Below are positions 6,710 through 12,556 of a stretch of 34,415 bases of DNA, in pieces (position 1 is the first letter of the stretch; every line of letters starts with the position of its first letter). A program made the position numbers and the translations under genes. This stretch comes from Lachnospiraceae bacterium (GTDB lineage: Bacteria > Bacillota > Clostridia > Lachnospirales > Lachnospiraceae), in contig SVFE01000026.1 of NCBI GenBank assembly GCA_015057055.1, forward strand, positions 1-34,415, given 5' to 3'. Under the pieces are notes generated by a model that made no database searches, had not been told where the DNA came from, and saw nothing but the letters and a program-made list of their open reading frames with translations.

Positions 6710-7330
6710 TTATGTATTTTTTATCATTACCTGCTCAATTACGTCTGATGCATGTTCACAAAGGTCGCAACAGTTTTCCAAGCCTTCGTATACCTTTTTT
6801 TGTCCGATTAACGTTTTATCATCCGCATCGGAGCCAAACAATTCATATATAGCATCCACGTAAATCCGGTCCGCCTCGATTTCAATATCGTTTACTTTCA
6901 CCAATAAATCGTGCAGGGAATCTCTTTTTTTGAAGTTCTTCAATTCTGCCGCCGCTTCGTTTAATGCACGTACACAGCGGTTGACAACTCCTGCAATTTC
7001 CTTCGTCTTAGGAGAAATCTCCTTGATATGATACATGTAGATATCCAAAATTACCTCATCCAATGCATCCGTAATATCATCGATAATCTGCACCAGATGA
7101 AGGATATCCTCCTGGTCAATGGGGGTTATAAATTCAATCGACAACTTTCGAAGGATATCATGATGAATTTCATCTGCCCGGTTTTCGATTTCATGCATCT
7201 GGGAACGGTAGTTTTCAATGCATCCCTTATCAAATTTTCCCAGAATTTCCTCCAAAAGATTTGCCGCTTCCACGCAGCACTCCGTCTGGTTTTGAATCAA
7301 TGCAAAATAGTCATTATTTTTCTTTTTCAT
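6710..7330 (-). CDS. DUF47 family (PhoU-like) Pit-accessory protein
   Basis: Roughly 206 residues, almost entirely alpha-helical, of the DUF47/YkaA family related to PhoU. Recognisable segments are the N-terminal FALIQNQTECCVEAANLLEE, then RADEIHHDILRKL, TPIDQEDILHLVQIIDDITD and the C-terminal LYEGLENCCDLCEHASDVIE-like pattern. Members are nearly always next to a Pit-type phosphate transporter, as here (gene 7347-8396), and are thought to modulate Pi uptake; the two genes are separated by a few bases. Start choice: the ATG at 7342 has no ribosome site, but the ATG at 7330 has GGAG 6 bases upstream, so I start there. Cytoplasmic; a metal-binding role like PhoU is possible. Confidence 0.88.
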   Translation of the reverse strand: MKKKNNDYFALIQNQTECCVEAANLLEEILGKFDKGCIENYRSQMHEIENRADEIHHDILRKLSIEFITPIDQEDILHLVQIIDDITDALDEVILDIYMYHIKEISPKTKEIAGVVNRCVRALNEAAAELKNFKKRDSLHDLLVKVNDIEIEADRIYVDAIYELFGSDADDKTLIGQKKVYEGLENCCDLCEHASDVIEQVMIKNT

Positions 7331-7346
7331 ACTTATCTCCATTCTT

Positions 7347-8396
7347 TTATGTAAAAATCAACAAAAAAAGTTTTGCCATTCCATATCCTAAAAGGCCGCA
7401 TCCGGGAAAGGTAAATACCCAGGTGAGCACCAATTCTTTTACGACGCTCCAATTAACATTACTCATTCTGCGGGCAGCACCAACACCCATAATGGCAGTA
7501 GTTTTTGTATGAGTGGTACTGACCGGAATACCGGTTACCGAAGAAAGAAGCAGGCAAAGGGTTGCCGATAAATCTGCAGCAAATCCCTGGTAAGGCTTTA
7601 ATTTCACCATATCCATTCCCACCGACTTAATAATTCGATATCCTCCGATGGAAGTTCCCAGCCCCATGACAGCGGAACAAAGAATCATCAGCCATACCGG
7701 CACCGCAAATTGTTCTGCACCGGCCTGTCCGTTCGCCATGGCTGCCCCCAGTAAAAAGATAGCAATGAACTTTTGTCCGTCCTGAGCGCCATGCATAAAT
7801 GCCATGGCCGCTGCACCTCCTACCTGGGCTCCGGAAAAGAATCGTTCCGACTTCATGCGGTTTTGCCCGCGGAAAAGAAATACTAATATTTTTGAACAAA
7901 CAAATCCAACCGCAAAGCCAAGAATTGTAGAAAGCAAAATGCCGTATAACACCTTAATCCATTCTGCACCGTTAATGCCGTCAAAACTGTTTTGAATCGC
8001 TACAGCTGCCCCGCTGATTCCGGCAATCAAAGCGTGGCTTTCGCTGGTAGGAATCCCAAAATACCATGCCGCCGTTGCCCAGATTACAATCGCTGCCATG
8101 GCTGCGCAAAGCGCAATCAGCGCCAAGCGGGAATCTCCTCCGAAATCCACCATGTTATAGATCGTAAATGCTACGGATGCATTAAGGGAGGTCATTACAA
8201 AAACACCAAGGAAATTGAAAATTGCTGCCATAATGATTGCTTTTCTCACAGAAATTGCTCGGGTAGATACGCAGGTCGCGATTGCATTCGGCGCATCAGT
8301 CCAGCCGTTCACCAGAATGACCCCCAGTATCAAAATCGACGAAACAAGTAGCATGGGGTTTGTTACCATTTGATTTATAAATTCAACTATACTCAT
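7347..8396 (-). CDS. Pit family inorganic phosphate transporter
   Basis: 349 residues, about ten membrane helices with the inverted duplicated signature of the PiT family. The first copy has GWTDAPNAIATCVSTRA and GIPTSESHALIAGISGAA; the second has FMHGAQDGQK and GIPVSTTHTKTTAIMGVGAARR. PiT proteins are low-affinity, cation-coupled (H+ or Na+) phosphate or metal-phosphate symporters in the cytoplasmic membrane. It lies 29 bases downstream of the decarboxylase beta-subunit gene and directly before DUF47, so all three are probably transcribed together under the leader RNA at 9580-9716. Its coupling ion is not deducible here. Confidence 0.93.
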   Translation of the reverse strand: MSIVEFINQMVTNPMLLVSSILILGVILVNGWTDAPNAIATCVSTRAISVRKAIIMAAIFNFLGVFVMTSLNASVAFTIYNMVDFGGDSRLALIALCAAMAAIVIWATAAWYFGIPTSESHALIAGISGAAVAIQNSFDGINGAEWIKVLYGILLSTILGFAVGFVCSKILVFLFRGQNRMKSERFFSGAQVGGAAAMAFMHGAQDGQKFIAIFLLGAAMANGQAGAEQFAVPVWLMILCSAVMGLGTSIGGYRIIKSVGMDMVKLKPYQGFAADLSATLCLLLSSVTGIPVSTTHTKTTAIMGVGAARRMSNVNWSVVKELVLTWVFTFPGCGLLGYGMAKLFLLIFT

Positions 8397-8425: not shown

Positions 8426-9535
8426 TTAAAACAATCCCAATAAAATACCGCCGATAATCGCCGAGGCAACCTGGCCGGAAACATTTGCGCCAACCGCCTG
8501 CATAATGATTATATTACCGGGGTTTTCATCGCTGGCCATTTTTTGTACCACGCGGGAAGCCATGGGAAATGCAGAGATTCCGGCCGCTCCAACCATGGGA
8601 TTGAATTTTTCCTTCCGAAACAGGTTAATGATTTTTACTGCCAGCACACCGCCGACAGTATCAAAAATAAACGCTACTAAACCAATCAACATGATAAACA
8701 AGGTCTCAACCTGAAGAAATTTATCTGCAGTCATGCTAAAGGAAATTGTAATTCCAAGTAACAGTGTAATCAGATTAGTTAATACATCCTGCGCTGTTTT
8801 GGACAAGGAATTGAGAACACCGCACTCTCTAATCAGGTTACCGAACATCAAAAATCCAACCAGTGAAATGGACATGGGTGCTACAAATCCCGCAAAAATC
8901 GTCACAACAATAGGGAAAATTATTTTCGCAGTTTTGGAAATCTTTTTCCCTTTATGAATAGGCATTGTAAGTTGCCGCTCTTTTTGGGTGGTGATTACTC
9001 GGATTGTGGTAGGCATAATAATGGGTACCAGTGCCATGTAGGAATAGGCTACCACTGCAATCGGTCCCATATAATTCGATTTCAAAATTTGAGACATCAG
9101 GATTGCCGTTGGGCCGTCAGCCGCACCGATTATACCGATAGAAAAAGCATCTGCCACGTTAAATCCCATAAGAAGCGCAAGACCGATTGCCACAAAGATT
9201 CCAAGATGTGCTGCAAAACCATACAAAGCAAGAATCGGTCTCTGAAGAAGGGGCTCAAAATCAATCATTGCCCCAATCCCGATAAAAAGCAGGATGGGAA
9301 ATGCTTCCGAAGCTTCGATTCCCACTTCGTATAACCATTGTATAATACCGTGTATTTCTCCGATTCCCTCCATGTTTTGGTTCAAAACACCGGTATTCGG
9401 AAGATTCACCAGAATCGCACCAAACCCCATCGGGAGCAGTAAATTCGGCTCATATTCCTTCTTTACCGCCAGGTAAATGAGCGCAAATCCAATCAACCAC
9501 ATAACAACCATTTTCACTACTTCAATCAGTTCCAT
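8426..9535 (-). CDS. Sodium-translocating decarboxylase beta subunit (OadB/GcdB/MmdB family), orphan
   Basis: 369 residues with about nine to eleven membrane helices. The family signature is clear: IGIGAMIDFEPLL, then GIIGAADGPTAILMSQIL around Asp140, the equivalent of the aspartate needed for Na+ translocation in Klebsiella OadB, then SYMALVPIIMPTTIRV and the C-terminal AAGISAFPMASRVVQK. In the complete enzyme this subunit pumps Na+ out while decarboxylating carboxybiotin made by the alpha subunit. No alpha, gamma or biotin carrier gene is present in the window; the neighbours are a phosphate transporter and DUF47. It may pair with subunits encoded elsewhere or act as a stand-alone cation transporter. 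Start supported by GAAAGGAG 9 bases upstream. Confidence 0.92.
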   Translation of the reverse strand: MELIEVVKMVVMWLIGFALIYLAVKKEYEPNLLLPMGFGAILVNLPNTGVLNQNMEGIGEIHGIIQWLYEVGIEASEAFPILLFIGIGAMIDFEPLLQRPILALYGFAAHLGIFVAIGLALLMGFNVADAFSIGIIGAADGPTAILMSQILKSNYMGPIAVVAYSYMALVPIIMPTTIRVITTQKERQLTMPIHKGKKISKTAKIIFPIVVTIFAGFVAPMSISLVGFLMFGNLIRECGVLNSLSKTAQDVLTNLITLLLGITISFSMTADKFLQVETLFIMLIGLVAFIFDTVGGVLAVKIINLFRKEKFNPMVGAAGISAFPMASRVVQKMASDENPGNIIIMQAVGANVSGQVASAIIGGILLGLF

Positions 9536-9579
9536 TCAAATAGTCTCCTTTCTTTTTTGAGCATCCTTTTGTATGTAGT

Positions 9580-9630
9580 AAAAAATAAAAAAAGACTTTT
9601 GATGCATATAAAAATATGCATCAAAAGTCT
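9580..9630 (-). terminator. Intrinsic terminator in the oadB leader (expression platform)
   Basis: On the minus strand AGACTTTTGATGCATA (9630-9615) pairs perfectly with TATGCATCAAAAGTCT (9608-9593), a 16-bp stem closed by a 6-base loop. It is followed by a run of seven Ts, an A and more Ts down to 9580. It lies 45 bases before the oadB start, so it would stop transcription before the gene. Its 5' arm contains the 3' strand of helix P1 of the upstream aptamer, so the two structures exclude each other. Confidence 0.92.
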
Positions 9631-9716
9631 GGTACCCAAAATTGGTATGTGCCACCAATTTGAACCCACTGTCCAAACGCGATTGTTGACGACACATCAA
9701 AACTACTCCCTCTTGA
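9621..9716 (-). promoter_or_regulatory. Candidate riboswitch aptamer, yybP-ykoY-like (Mn2+-type) fold
   Basis: The leader between promoter and terminator folds into a compact aptamer. P1 is TCAAGAG (9716-9710) with CTTTTGA (9627-9621). P2 is ATGTGTC (9697-9691) with GGCACAT (9653-9647). The conserved-looking joins are GGGAGTAG after the P1 5' strand, GTCGTCAACAATCG with the GTC closing P2, and a small ACCAA/TTGGGT hairpin before ACCAGAC. As I recall it, the manganese-sensing yybP-ykoY family has the same order: GGGGAGUAG, GUCGUCAA within P2, a GGC-N4 return strand, a small hairpin and AAGACCUUU closing P1. The match is by eye; a different ion-sensing class such as a Na+ riboswitch would also make sense before a sodium-pump gene. 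Ligand binding would stabilise P1 and prevent the terminator, predicting an ON switch. Confidence 0.6.
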
Positions 9717-9729
9717 TTATTACGCTTTG

Positions 9730-9758
9730 ATTATATAAATCACGGAAAAAATTGTCAA
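9730..9758 (-). promoter_or_regulatory. Sigma-A promoter of the oadB-pit-DUF47 operon
   Basis: On the minus strand the perfect -35 TTGACA (9758-9753) is followed by a 17-base spacer and a perfect -10 TATAAT (9735-9730). The expected transcription start, about 9723, lies a few bases before the aptamer at 9716, so nearly the whole leader is the regulatory RNA. Confidence 0.9.
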
Positions 9759-9791
9759 TATAATTCTCTCGTCTGTATTCGACAATTTTTT
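9746..9791. repeat. 11-bp inverted repeat spanning the oadB -35 box
   Basis: AAAAAATTGTC (9746-9756) and GACAATTTTTT (9781-9791) are perfect inverse copies 24 bases apart, and the left arm covers part of the -35 element. It could be the terminator of the upstream gene ending at 9837, because the minus-strand arm ends in six Ts, or an operator for the oadB promoter. The remaining bases to 9836 show nothing else. Confidence 0.5.
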
Positions 9792-10841: not shown

Positions 10842-11357
10842 TTAAATCTTAATTCCTAACTTTCTCATCATATAATACAGATTATTCGTCCTAACCCCGA
10901 AGGCTTTTGCCACATCTGGTATCTTGGCATTTCTATTCGGATTTTTCGGACTCAAACCACCTGATGGTACTTCTGCTGTAATGATTGTATAATCGTTTAC
11001 CGCAGCTGCCGCAATCAACCAAGGGTCTGCAATATGCTCAGGCGCCCAAGCTTGTAAAGCCTGTTCCTTATATAAGCCACAACTCTGCACATACTGCAAA
11101 ACATCCTGATATTTACTAATAATCTCTGGCGTAACATGGTTACAGATTTCAAATCCTGTCTGCTTTCCTACCCAATCAGCCAAATCATCTTCACCTTTAT
11201 CAATCTCAGCCTTTACCATATCAAGCAACACCAGTCTTCCTGACTCAGTACGTTTCGATAGTTCGTCCCAATAGGTTGGTATCAAATCAAAAGCATAATA
11301 CTGTCTGTATGGTGCCATAAAGGAGTTGGAATCAATCAAAAACTTTTCTTCTACCAT
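10842..11357 (-). CDS. DUF4411 family PIN-like protein
   Basis: 171 residues. The N-terminus FLIDSNSFM resembles the PIN-domain first strand with an acidic Asp9; further acidic residues that could bind metal are Glu51 (VKAEIDKGE) and Asp111 (IADPWLIAAAA), followed by the strand YTIITAE. This set and the order match DUF4411, a PIN-like family usually found directly next to an ImmA/IrrE metallopeptidase gene, as here, where the genes overlap by 7 bases. PIN proteins are mostly metal-dependent RNases, so this is the probable toxin or effector of the pair. The last residues LYYMMRKLGIKI form the helical tail. Function as a nuclease is inferred, not shown. Confidence 0.85.
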   Translation of the reverse strand: MVEEKFLIDSNSFMAPYRQYYAFDLIPTYWDELSKRTESGRLVLLDMVKAEIDKGEDDLADWVGKQTGFEICNHVTPEIISKYQDVLQYVQSCGLYKEQALQAWAPEHIADPWLIAAAAVNDYTIITAEVPSGGLSPKNPNRNAKIPDVAKAFGVRTNNLYYMMRKLGIKI

Positions 11358-12520
11358 TCCACACCTCCAAGACGCTGCACTACATCAGAAAATGTCTTGC
11401 GGCTTGTATTTGTCAGACGATATGCTTCTGTATAAGAAGTTCTACCCATATTGATGCTTTCACATAATGCTCTTACAAAGCATCCGTCTAAACGAGAACC
11501 CATGGTATTATAATAATTACCACCAGAACTCTCTTTGTTCTCTTTCATCTGATTGTAATTGTCGATTGCAGTCTGTACTACTTGCTGATAGACATCCTGC
11601 TTTATCTTCTTACAATCCATCGCTTTTCTTGCAATAACAATCTCACCACAACGGAAATACTTCGCTAGCTCTGTAATGGTTGCATACACATCCATATCAA
11701 TATCGCTAGCATTCCATTTATTCAAGAATATACTCTTTGGTACAATTAACTCTCCAGCTACTGCATTACACATTACTTCCGTAGCACTCACACCATCCAC
11801 ACGATTTCGTCTGTCATTAAACAAATCATCTTCGCCAATCCAAATATGAGCCACTTCATGTAATAGAGAGAATAACTTAGCACCATTAGAATCTGCTGTA
11901 TTAATAAATATAAGCGGAGCCCATTCATCTACCATAGCAAACGCTCTGAACTCATTTACATCCAATGCACGATGTGTATTCTTTCCTACCACACCGCTCA
12001 TCATCACAACTACCCCACATTCTTCCAGCGTTCCTCTGATGTAGCTGAAAGCTTCTCTAGGGTCCTTACATTTCTCGTACCAAGTATCTTCTAAGTCTAA
12101 ATCCTTGCGAATTCTATCAACGATAACACTGGCATCCTTAACACCCTTCATACAACCAACAACAGGTAACACATCAAAACCTAGCTCCTGTCTGTAATCC
12201 TTCATCCAGTCCTGAACACTTTCCATTTCATGAATTGTATCAATCAGATTACGACTTGGATTAGCAAGCTGAATACTATCCACAGTACGATATTCCAATA
12301 ATTCAATCTGTTCTACTGGTGGTGTCTGCAAGAAGAAATATCCCAATGGAATATTGGCTTTCTTACTAAACTCCTCTATTTGATTAAAGGTCGGAGTCTT
12401 AGTACCATTAAGCCACTGTGTTATATGATTCATCAATTTATCGCCAAGTTTTTCTTCTTGTGTTTGACTCAAAGCCCAGCTAATTATTTCTGGCTGAATA
12501 TTCACATTCACTGCTGGCAT
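11351..12520 (-). CDS. ImmA/IrrE family metallopeptidase with XRE-like N-terminal region
   Basis: 389 residues from the chosen start. The N-terminal region (VNVNIQPEIISWALSQT, then ITQWLNGTKTPTFNQIEEFS) is a degenerate helix-turn-helix of the XRE type, followed by a segment ending GYFFLQTPPVE, typical of COG2856 proteins. The zinc protease motif HEVAH is at residues 221-225 (His221, Glu222, His225), with GE seven residues on. Such proteins cleave or bind partner repressors or toxins; paired with DUF4411 it is probably the regulatory or antitoxin half. Start choice: the first in-frame ATG (12538) overlaps its own ribosome site, while AAGGAGG lies 7 bases before the ATG at 12520, giving the family-typical start MPAVNVN. 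It overlaps the PIN-like gene by 7 bases. Confidence 0.9.
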   Translation of the reverse strand: MPAVNVNIQPEIISWALSQTQEEKLGDKLMNHITQWLNGTKTPTFNQIEEFSKKANIPLGYFFLQTPPVEQIELLEYRTVDSIQLANPSRNLIDTIHEMESVQDWMKDYRQELGFDVLPVVGCMKGVKDASVIVDRIRKDLDLEDTWYEKCKDPREAFSYIRGTLEECGVVVMMSGVVGKNTHRALDVNEFRAFAMVDEWAPLIFINTADSNGAKLFSLLHEVAHIWIGEDDLFNDRRNRVDGVSATEVMCNAVAGELIVPKSIFLNKWNASDIDMDVYATITELAKYFRCGEIVIARKAMDCKKIKQDVYQQVVQTAIDNYNQMKENKESSGGNYYNTMGSRLDGCFVRALCESINMGRTSYTEAYRLTNTSRKTFSDVVQRLGGVEW

Positions 12521-12556
12521 AGCACTACCTCCTTCCAATCAAACTTTTCTAATGTA

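Follow-up and report, generated by a model that had tools for sequence, protein, structure and literature searches.

The closest described system to the leader reported here is the Mn2+-sensing yybP-ykoY riboswitch (Rfam family RF00080). Work on the L. lactis representative describes a transcriptional switch in which Mn2+ stabilises helix P1.1, the 3′ segment of which otherwise enters a terminator, so that binding of the ion leads to read-through (PMC11087558). The Mn2+ ion sits between loops L1 and L3, where its ligands are five phosphoryl oxygens and the N7 of an invariable adenosine, A41 in the UCA41 of L. lactis (PMC6754395). A regulon study that predates knowledge of the ligand names transporters as the products of many yybP-ykoY genes (PMC3766115). 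Contrary to the L. lactis work, a review on C. difficile classes the family as OFF switches (PMC11477304); the ON direction used here follows the L. lactis work.

The window analysed is a stretch of 34,415 nt from a Lachnospiraceae bacterium (contig SVFE01000026.1). On its minus strand, a structured leader precedes a gene of the OadB family, whose members are Na+-pump subunits. The original prediction, made from this sequence alone, compared the leader with the yybP-ykoY class and left room for a variant class, an unusual regulon member or a Na+-type sensor.

Anatomy and conservation of the leader

The leader starts from a TTGACA-N17-TATAAT promoter, which stands as predicted on the minus strand and is the sole exact TTGACA-N16–18-TATAAT match on either strand of the window (0.02 expected; present in 2 of 100 shuffles). 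From this promoter (9758–9730) runs a leader of about 135 nt, which closes with a 17-bp terminator (9630–9593) and is followed by oadB. Its features and those of the operon are listed below, with compensatory pairs counted in two alignments, A1 (seven sequences) and A2 (55 model matches), both described after the list.

9730–9758, minus strand: promoter, exact match; TTGACA (9758–9753), 17-nt spacer, TATAAT (9735–9730)
9710–9716, minus strand: 5′ strand of P1, the switch helix or antiterminator; compensatory pairs 2 of 7 in A1, 5 of 7 in A2
9703–9710, minus strand: L1, GGGAGUAG, conserved join, invariant in A1
9690–9697, minus strand: 5′ strand of the long helix (called P2 in the original prediction); compensatory pairs 6 of 8 in A1, 8 of 8 in A2
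9684–9690, minus strand: L3, GUCAACA, of which UCAACA is invariant in A1
9658–9678, minus strand: P3 hairpin (9678–9671/9665–9658); of three modelled pairs, two compensatory in A1 and three in A2
9647–9654, minus strand: 3′ strand of the long helix, preceded by a conserved UGG (9657–9655)
9635–9646, minus strand: P4 hairpin (9646–9643/9638–9635); compensatory pairs 4 of 4 in A2, none in A1
9621–9630, minus strand: AGAC join (9630–9627) and 3′ strand of P1 (9627–9621), common to the terminator
9586–9630, minus strand: intrinsic terminator, 17-bp stem (9630–9614/9609–9593), loop of 4, T run
8426–9535, minus strand: orphan OadB (369 aa; Pfam OAD_beta), from a group that lacks decarboxylase neighbours
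7347–8396, minus strand: Pit-type phosphate transporter, second gene (Pfam PHO4)
6710–7342, minus strand: DUF47/PhoU_div protein, third gene (Pfam)

Both long-range helices of the original prediction, P1 (9716–9710/9627–9621) and the long helix (9697–9691/9653–9647), are present and covary, the latter extending to 8 bp (9697–9690/9654–9647), and P3 and P4 are helices beyond those it had named. The terminator does reuse the 3′ strand of P1 as proposed, with a stem of 17 bp rather than 16 bp. Because strand 9627–9621 is common to both, P1 and the terminator are mutually exclusive; judged from the sequence and predicted folds, P1 thus has the family feature of a switch helix that competes with a terminator. 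The single-sequence fold is much more stable than that of shuffled sequences (z-score of −5.78), mostly owing to the terminator, and P1 is not formed in it. Of 122 relatives, 115 have a predicted terminator built on the 3′ strand of P1, compared with 10 of 122 shuffled-tail controls.

The leader is real and conserved. An exact pattern search of 60 relatives matched the window alone. A BLASTN search of 150 genomes of the family (E≤1) gave some match in 114 genomes, most of which were dropped as terminator or A/T-rich sequence, as judged by the query range. Seven further loci were read, of which six were kept (L005, L006, L008, L009, L015 and L022) and one dropped (L016). The six homologues carry GGGAGTAG together with the join motifs, and with the window RNA they form alignment A1. 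Unguided RNAalifold on A1 recovers the P1, long and P3 helices together with three of the four P4 pairs; two further helices that it proposes (columns 14–16/94–96 and 32–34/70–72) were left out, their columns being nearly invariant and beyond the reach of covariation. For the structure listed above, 94.7% of cells in A1 are paired and two-sided changes are seen at 10 of 22 pairs, a degree of covariation matched by none of 500 shuffles, and versions slid along the alignment pair at 31 to 43%.

The window RNA and its six close relatives served to build a covariance model, R1, which at E≤0.01 has matches in 46 of the 392 genomes searched in the order. Within the genus, the window's own element is the single match among 35 genomes, a scarcity that suggests horizontal gain or many losses. 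In alignment A2 (55 R1 matches, 52 of them distinct), which is fitted to R1, covariation extends to 20 of 22 pairs, a level that none of 500 shuffles attains, and 95.7% of cells are paired. A pattern scan of the contigs yielded at least 118 stretches, from which 80 loci were taken: 74 are full R1 matches, one was cut off (L196, dropped) and five are not matches. The 55 R1 matches and 74 scan matches, less six duplicates, make 123 unique R1 elements; as L1 and L3 were fixed by design in the scan, it is uninformative on the conservation of these two joins.

Relation to the RF00080 family

Standard models do not recover the leader. Rfam at gathering score gives no match for it in the window; no Mn2+, Na+ or Li+ family occurs among the 66 matches of a scan of 9540–9760 at E≤10; and a whole-genome search with RF00080 at E≤10 has no match at this element, which does not reach the family's gathering score of 45 bits (its relative L041, in genome G082, scores 9.2 bits). 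Rfam at gathering score likewise finds no RF00080 in sets of 7, 20 and 20 relatives' loci, nor does a low-threshold scan (E≤0.5) of nine relatives with and without a P2 hairpin. Low-threshold matches to microRNAs, rli33 and other families were discarded as terminator hairpin or A/T-rich sequence. The original prediction named the absence of both a model match and covariation as an outcome that would speak against it: an Rfam match is indeed absent, and covariation is instead strong.

The link between the window and RF00080 runs through R1 and intermediates. Among 30 loci called by RF00080 at E≤1e-4, five of which exceed the family cut-off, R1 matches 16 in the same place at E≤0.01 and is absent or above 0.01 in 14. 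The R1 alignment with one of these, L244 (RF00080 score of 56.5 bits), retains GGGAGUAG, GUCAACA, CUGG and CGAGAC. The window RNA carries, by position in the alignment, both the conserved L1 and an L3 with the metal-binding adenosine, and its long helix is the counterpart of P3.1 in yybP-ykoY.

Crystal structures of the Mn2+ riboswitch show a four-way junction that includes a P2 hairpin, which the window leader lacks: the stretch from GTAG to L3 is at most 18 nt there and in 115 of 123 relatives. By spacing, 8 of the 123 R1 elements have a longer stretch able to hold P2. By eye, P2 is also missing from some RF00080 matches above the cut-off, namely L244 and L247 (45.2 bits). The compact form thus already lies inside the RF00080 family, and the idea that the P2-less form is a wholly new architecture was rejected. 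Taken together, these results give good support to the view that the window leader belongs to a compact, P2-less branch related to the Mn2+ riboswitch and missed by the current Rfam model. The suggestion of a yybP-ykoY variant is borne out by the recovery of RF00080-called loci with R1 and by the genes of the relatives, which include Mn2+/Ca2+ exporter families.

Downstream genes and the orphan OadB group

Gene families were assigned by BLAST clusters from the two ORFs that come first downstream in the same orientation, with Pfam names on representatives (E1-E2_ATPase, Na_Ca_ex, GDT1, Mntp and OAD_beta); the radical SAM and Kup clusters carry presumptive names. Five families account for the genes downstream of 110 of the 123 R1 elements: P-type ATPase (62), CaCA (21), OadB (12), GDT1/UPF0016 (12) and MntP (3). 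The remainder precede radical SAM (4), Kup (2) or other genes (7). The 52 elements found without the motif pattern are distributed over P-type ATPase (30), CaCA (8), OadB (6), radical SAM (4), Kup (2), MntP (1) and other (1). The association with Mn2+ exporters (MntP 3, GDT1 12 and P-type ATPase 62 of 123) holds at the level of the branch and does not extend to the window gene itself. The leader is in this sense the unusual regulon member that had been envisaged, its target being an orphan oadB and its relatives mostly preceding divalent-ion exporters.

P2-less members share GGGAGUAG and CAACA across transporter classes, although all GDT1 and P2-less MntP members are scan matches and the pattern fixes L1 and L3 in 74 elements. 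Other L3 letters occur in Kup members, in some CaCA members and in two P-type members with P2. In L139 and L149, L3 reads AUCAACAU, and TGCAACAT is a spurious first match that falls in the linker. The possibility of an altered metal site in OadB-linked RNAs was considered and gave no sign, in a set where 74 elements come from the scan that fixes L1 and L3. Three elements that match R1 and R2 (a second model, described below), L086, L087 and L089, have an L3 that reads AUCAUUAC and possibly an unusual specificity; they lie upstream of a Kup-like protein, presumably a potassium transporter. A sub-branch with GGGAGUAGC (L111, L113, L114 and L119) precedes a gene that we take to be radical SAM-like, together with a VTT-domain gene.

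Pfam bears out the predicted order of oadB-like, pit and DUF47 genes in the window (OAD_beta, PHO4 and DUF47/PhoU_div), with intergenic gaps of 29 nt between oadB and pit and 4 nt between pit and DUF47. Pit and DUF47 lie beside OadB in the window only, 1 of 30 loci of its group. We know of no Mn2+ role for OadB, Pit or DUF47. Upstream of the leader, at 10842–12538, the window holds adjacent DUF4411 and IrrE/M78-like genes, perhaps, at a guess, a mobile or toxin–antitoxin-like pair.

Across 295 genomes of the order, the OadB matches listed separate into two groups by identity to the window protein (at least 58% and at most 50%). The best 30 loci of the first, termed clade A and including the window, and 20 of the second, termed canonical, were fetched; identity to the window OadB is 57–69% within the group and 41–48% for the canonical loci fetched. 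In a midpoint-rooted FastTree phylogeny the clade-A node has a support of 0.312, so that monophyly is not firm. An OadB reading frame is present in 29 of the 30 clade-A loci, L296 having an in-frame stop. Within the roughly 1.5 kb covered in these 29 loci, where the gene before OadB is visible in 28 and the gene after it in 29, no neighbour shares a cluster with the OadA-like and biotin-carrier genes found beside canonical OadB. At canonical loci (19 and L274; L324 was dropped for a placeholder of 100 bases), by contrast, an OadA-like gene lies directly downstream in 18 of 20 and a biotin carrier directly upstream in 15 of 20, the biotin carrier being named by eye and one OadA-like representative matching Pfam PYC_OADA and HMGL-like.

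Residue D140 is kept in all 40 clade-A or RNA-linked sequences and all 20 canonical ones; one clade sequence is truncated, and the other 39 as well as the 20 canonical ones all retain N312, G316, S321 and R328 (window numbering). These we take to be the Na+-site residues, and their retention argues for a continued capacity of the OadB of this group to move ions. The absence of a neighbouring decarboxylase makes secondary transport the likely activity of clade-A OadB. The idea that it replaces MntP is not supported: MntP is about as frequent in clade-A genomes (22 of 30, the window's own included) as overall (219 of 295).

Several loci of the group have their own surroundings. At L277–L281 and L289, where clade-A OadB lacks this leader, the next two genes belong to a single cluster, represented by a chromate transporter. 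At L122, L123, L181 and L203, riboswitch-linked OadB has a CNNM/CBS-type gene directly before it. In L163, a Lachnospiraceae metagenome-assembled genome from sheep rectum, an OadB 90% identical to that of the window has a window-like leader and is followed by a 167-aa ORF, not pit.

The motif GGGAGTA[AG] occurs within 450 nt upstream of OadB in 16 of 30 clade-A loci, compared with none of 20 canonical loci, for 15 of which a biotin-carrier gene precedes oadB and the operon promoter may lie beyond the 450 nt searched; 14 of the 30 clade-A loci are without such a leader. Fifteen of the 16 leaders are of a form with the P2 hairpin and not of the window form. Their alignment, A3, shows covariation at 12 of 14 predicted pairs, four of the 14 lying in P2, and its consensus fold holds P2 and the long helix, not P1. 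Model R2, built from these 15 leaders of other OadB genes only, matches 23 of the 30 RF00080-called loci at E≤0.01 and scores 15.3 bits (E of 0.76) on the window RNA. At E≤0.01 it has matches in 118 of 295 genomes; at least 25 of those listed have an MntP match in the same orientation 147–299 nt downstream, an arrangement also seen in sequence at L351, L353 and L355. R2 finds nothing upstream of OadB at the 20 canonical loci, a chance-level match in L322 (E of 0.78) lying at a gene end, nor at the 14 motif-less clade-A loci. The P2-form leaders and the window form thus place the clade-A OadB group under two distinct Mn2+-type leader forms. The 12 OadB genes of the R1 set were found via the RNA and are separate from the 16 of 30, except for the window. 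The genome of the window holds a second element (G000:C99:16711-16804, locus L356; R2 E of 7.6e-6), upstream of an ABC transporter ATPase that is presumably MacB/LolD-like.

Many relatives of the Mn2+ riboswitch in the order therefore escape the current Rfam model: R1 matches 46 of 392 and R2 118 of 295 genomes, and RF00080 scores above its cut-off in 5 of the 149 genomes searched in the phylum, the three counts coming from different genome sets and thresholds.

Proposed mechanism, alternatives and comparison with known systems

By analogy, the A of UCA in the window L3 aligns with the Mn2+-binding A41 of L. lactis, and the window L1, GGGAGUAG, corresponds to a yybP-ykoY loop that forms part of the metal site (PMC6754395). 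Since the window RNA has both loops, the aligned adenosine and a P1/terminator overlap as in L. lactis, we infer an ON switch for Mn2+, in which P1 probably prevents the terminator. In the ligand-free state, the weak, A/U-rich P1 would lose its 3′ strand to the 17-bp terminator and transcription would stop; with ligand, L1 would dock on L3 (GUCAACA) around the metal and hold P1, so that the terminator would be blocked and oadB, pit and DUF47 transcribed. OadB, with its ion-translocation residues kept and no decarboxylase neighbours, would then most likely serve in cation efflux, probably of Mn2+. With fair assurance, then, we read the locus as a compact, Mn2+-type transcriptional ON riboswitch ahead of an orphan OadB with a probable part in cation efflux.

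The same fold and switch might instead be tuned, in the branch or in its OadB-linked members, to Ca2+, Mg2+, Fe2+, Co2+ or another ion. The CaCA transporters and P-type ATPases linked to R1 may move Ca2+, 4 of 11 OadB loci picked up via the RNA have a CNNM gene directly before OadB, and a review of orphan riboswitches anticipates that certain yybP variants respond to divalent ions other than Mn2+ (PMC7266159). RNAs with the L1/L3 motif of the window precede MntP and GDT1 genes, which argues against such a shift, although the two P2-less MntP and 12 GDT1 members come from the scan that fixes the motif, and so show it to occur with Mn2+ exporters rather than to be independent of the gene; on balance this alternative appears unlikely. 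A plain attenuator, or a terminator of the upstream gene with no ligand gating, would fit the fold z-score, most of which the strong terminator explains by itself, but is very improbable given that the leader has its own promoter and conserved joins, that P1, the long helix, P3 and P4 covary, and that five transporter families follow in 110 of 123 cases. Barely credible is a Na+ or Li+ riboswitch for a sodium-pump gene, which the Na+-pump subunit family of OadB would suit: no Na+ or Li+ family appears in the cmscan at E≤10, the relatives precede mostly divalent-ion exporters, including Mn2+/Ca2+ families, and none of the 20 canonical OadB loci has the GGGAGTA[AG] leader. The Na+-I riboswitch (DUF1646 motif), also an ion-sensing leader, is indeed reported to occur occasionally before oxaloacetate decarboxylase genes, and differs in its two extended paired parts, P1 and P2, with conserved clusters at the P1 base and in the P2 loop (PMC9337991).

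A Mn2+-type leader before a lone sodium-pump subunit suggests that a pump-like protein takes part in metal-ion detoxification, and the leaders lead us to predict Mn2+ or another divalent ion as the OadB substrate. In a full-text search, with the two 2015 primary papers on the Mn2+ riboswitch outside its scope, no paper appeared to link orphan OadB or oxaloacetate decarboxylase to the Mn2+ riboswitch or to Mn2+ efflux; those returned concern the Na+ riboswitch, a Leuconostoc genome and rumen propionate. The findings suggest a functional hypothesis for orphan OadB, in which the membrane subunit of a sodium pump is reused for metal homeostasis. More tentatively, and with somewhat less than an even chance in our estimate, orphan OadB proteins may be unrecognised exporters of Mn2+ or other divalent ions, recruited from a sodium-pump subunit once the decarboxylase was lost, and placed under two structural forms of the Mn2+ riboswitch in several families of Clostridia.

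Compared with the OadB of oxaloacetate decarboxylase (PDB 6iva and 6iww), the window protein is homologous over residues 42–366 (E of 1.7e-81). It differs in its setting: canonical OadB has OadA-like and biotin-carrier flanks, and none of the neighbours covered in 29 clade-A loci belongs to those clusters. The leader differs from yybP-ykoY RNAs of RF00080 in being missed by that model at E≤10, in having no P2 hairpin and in preceding an orphan oadB. It shares with them L1 (GGGAGUAG), the UCAACA of L3, the AGAC join, a P1 switch helix whose 3′ strand is common to the terminator and, across its branch, the association with exporter genes.
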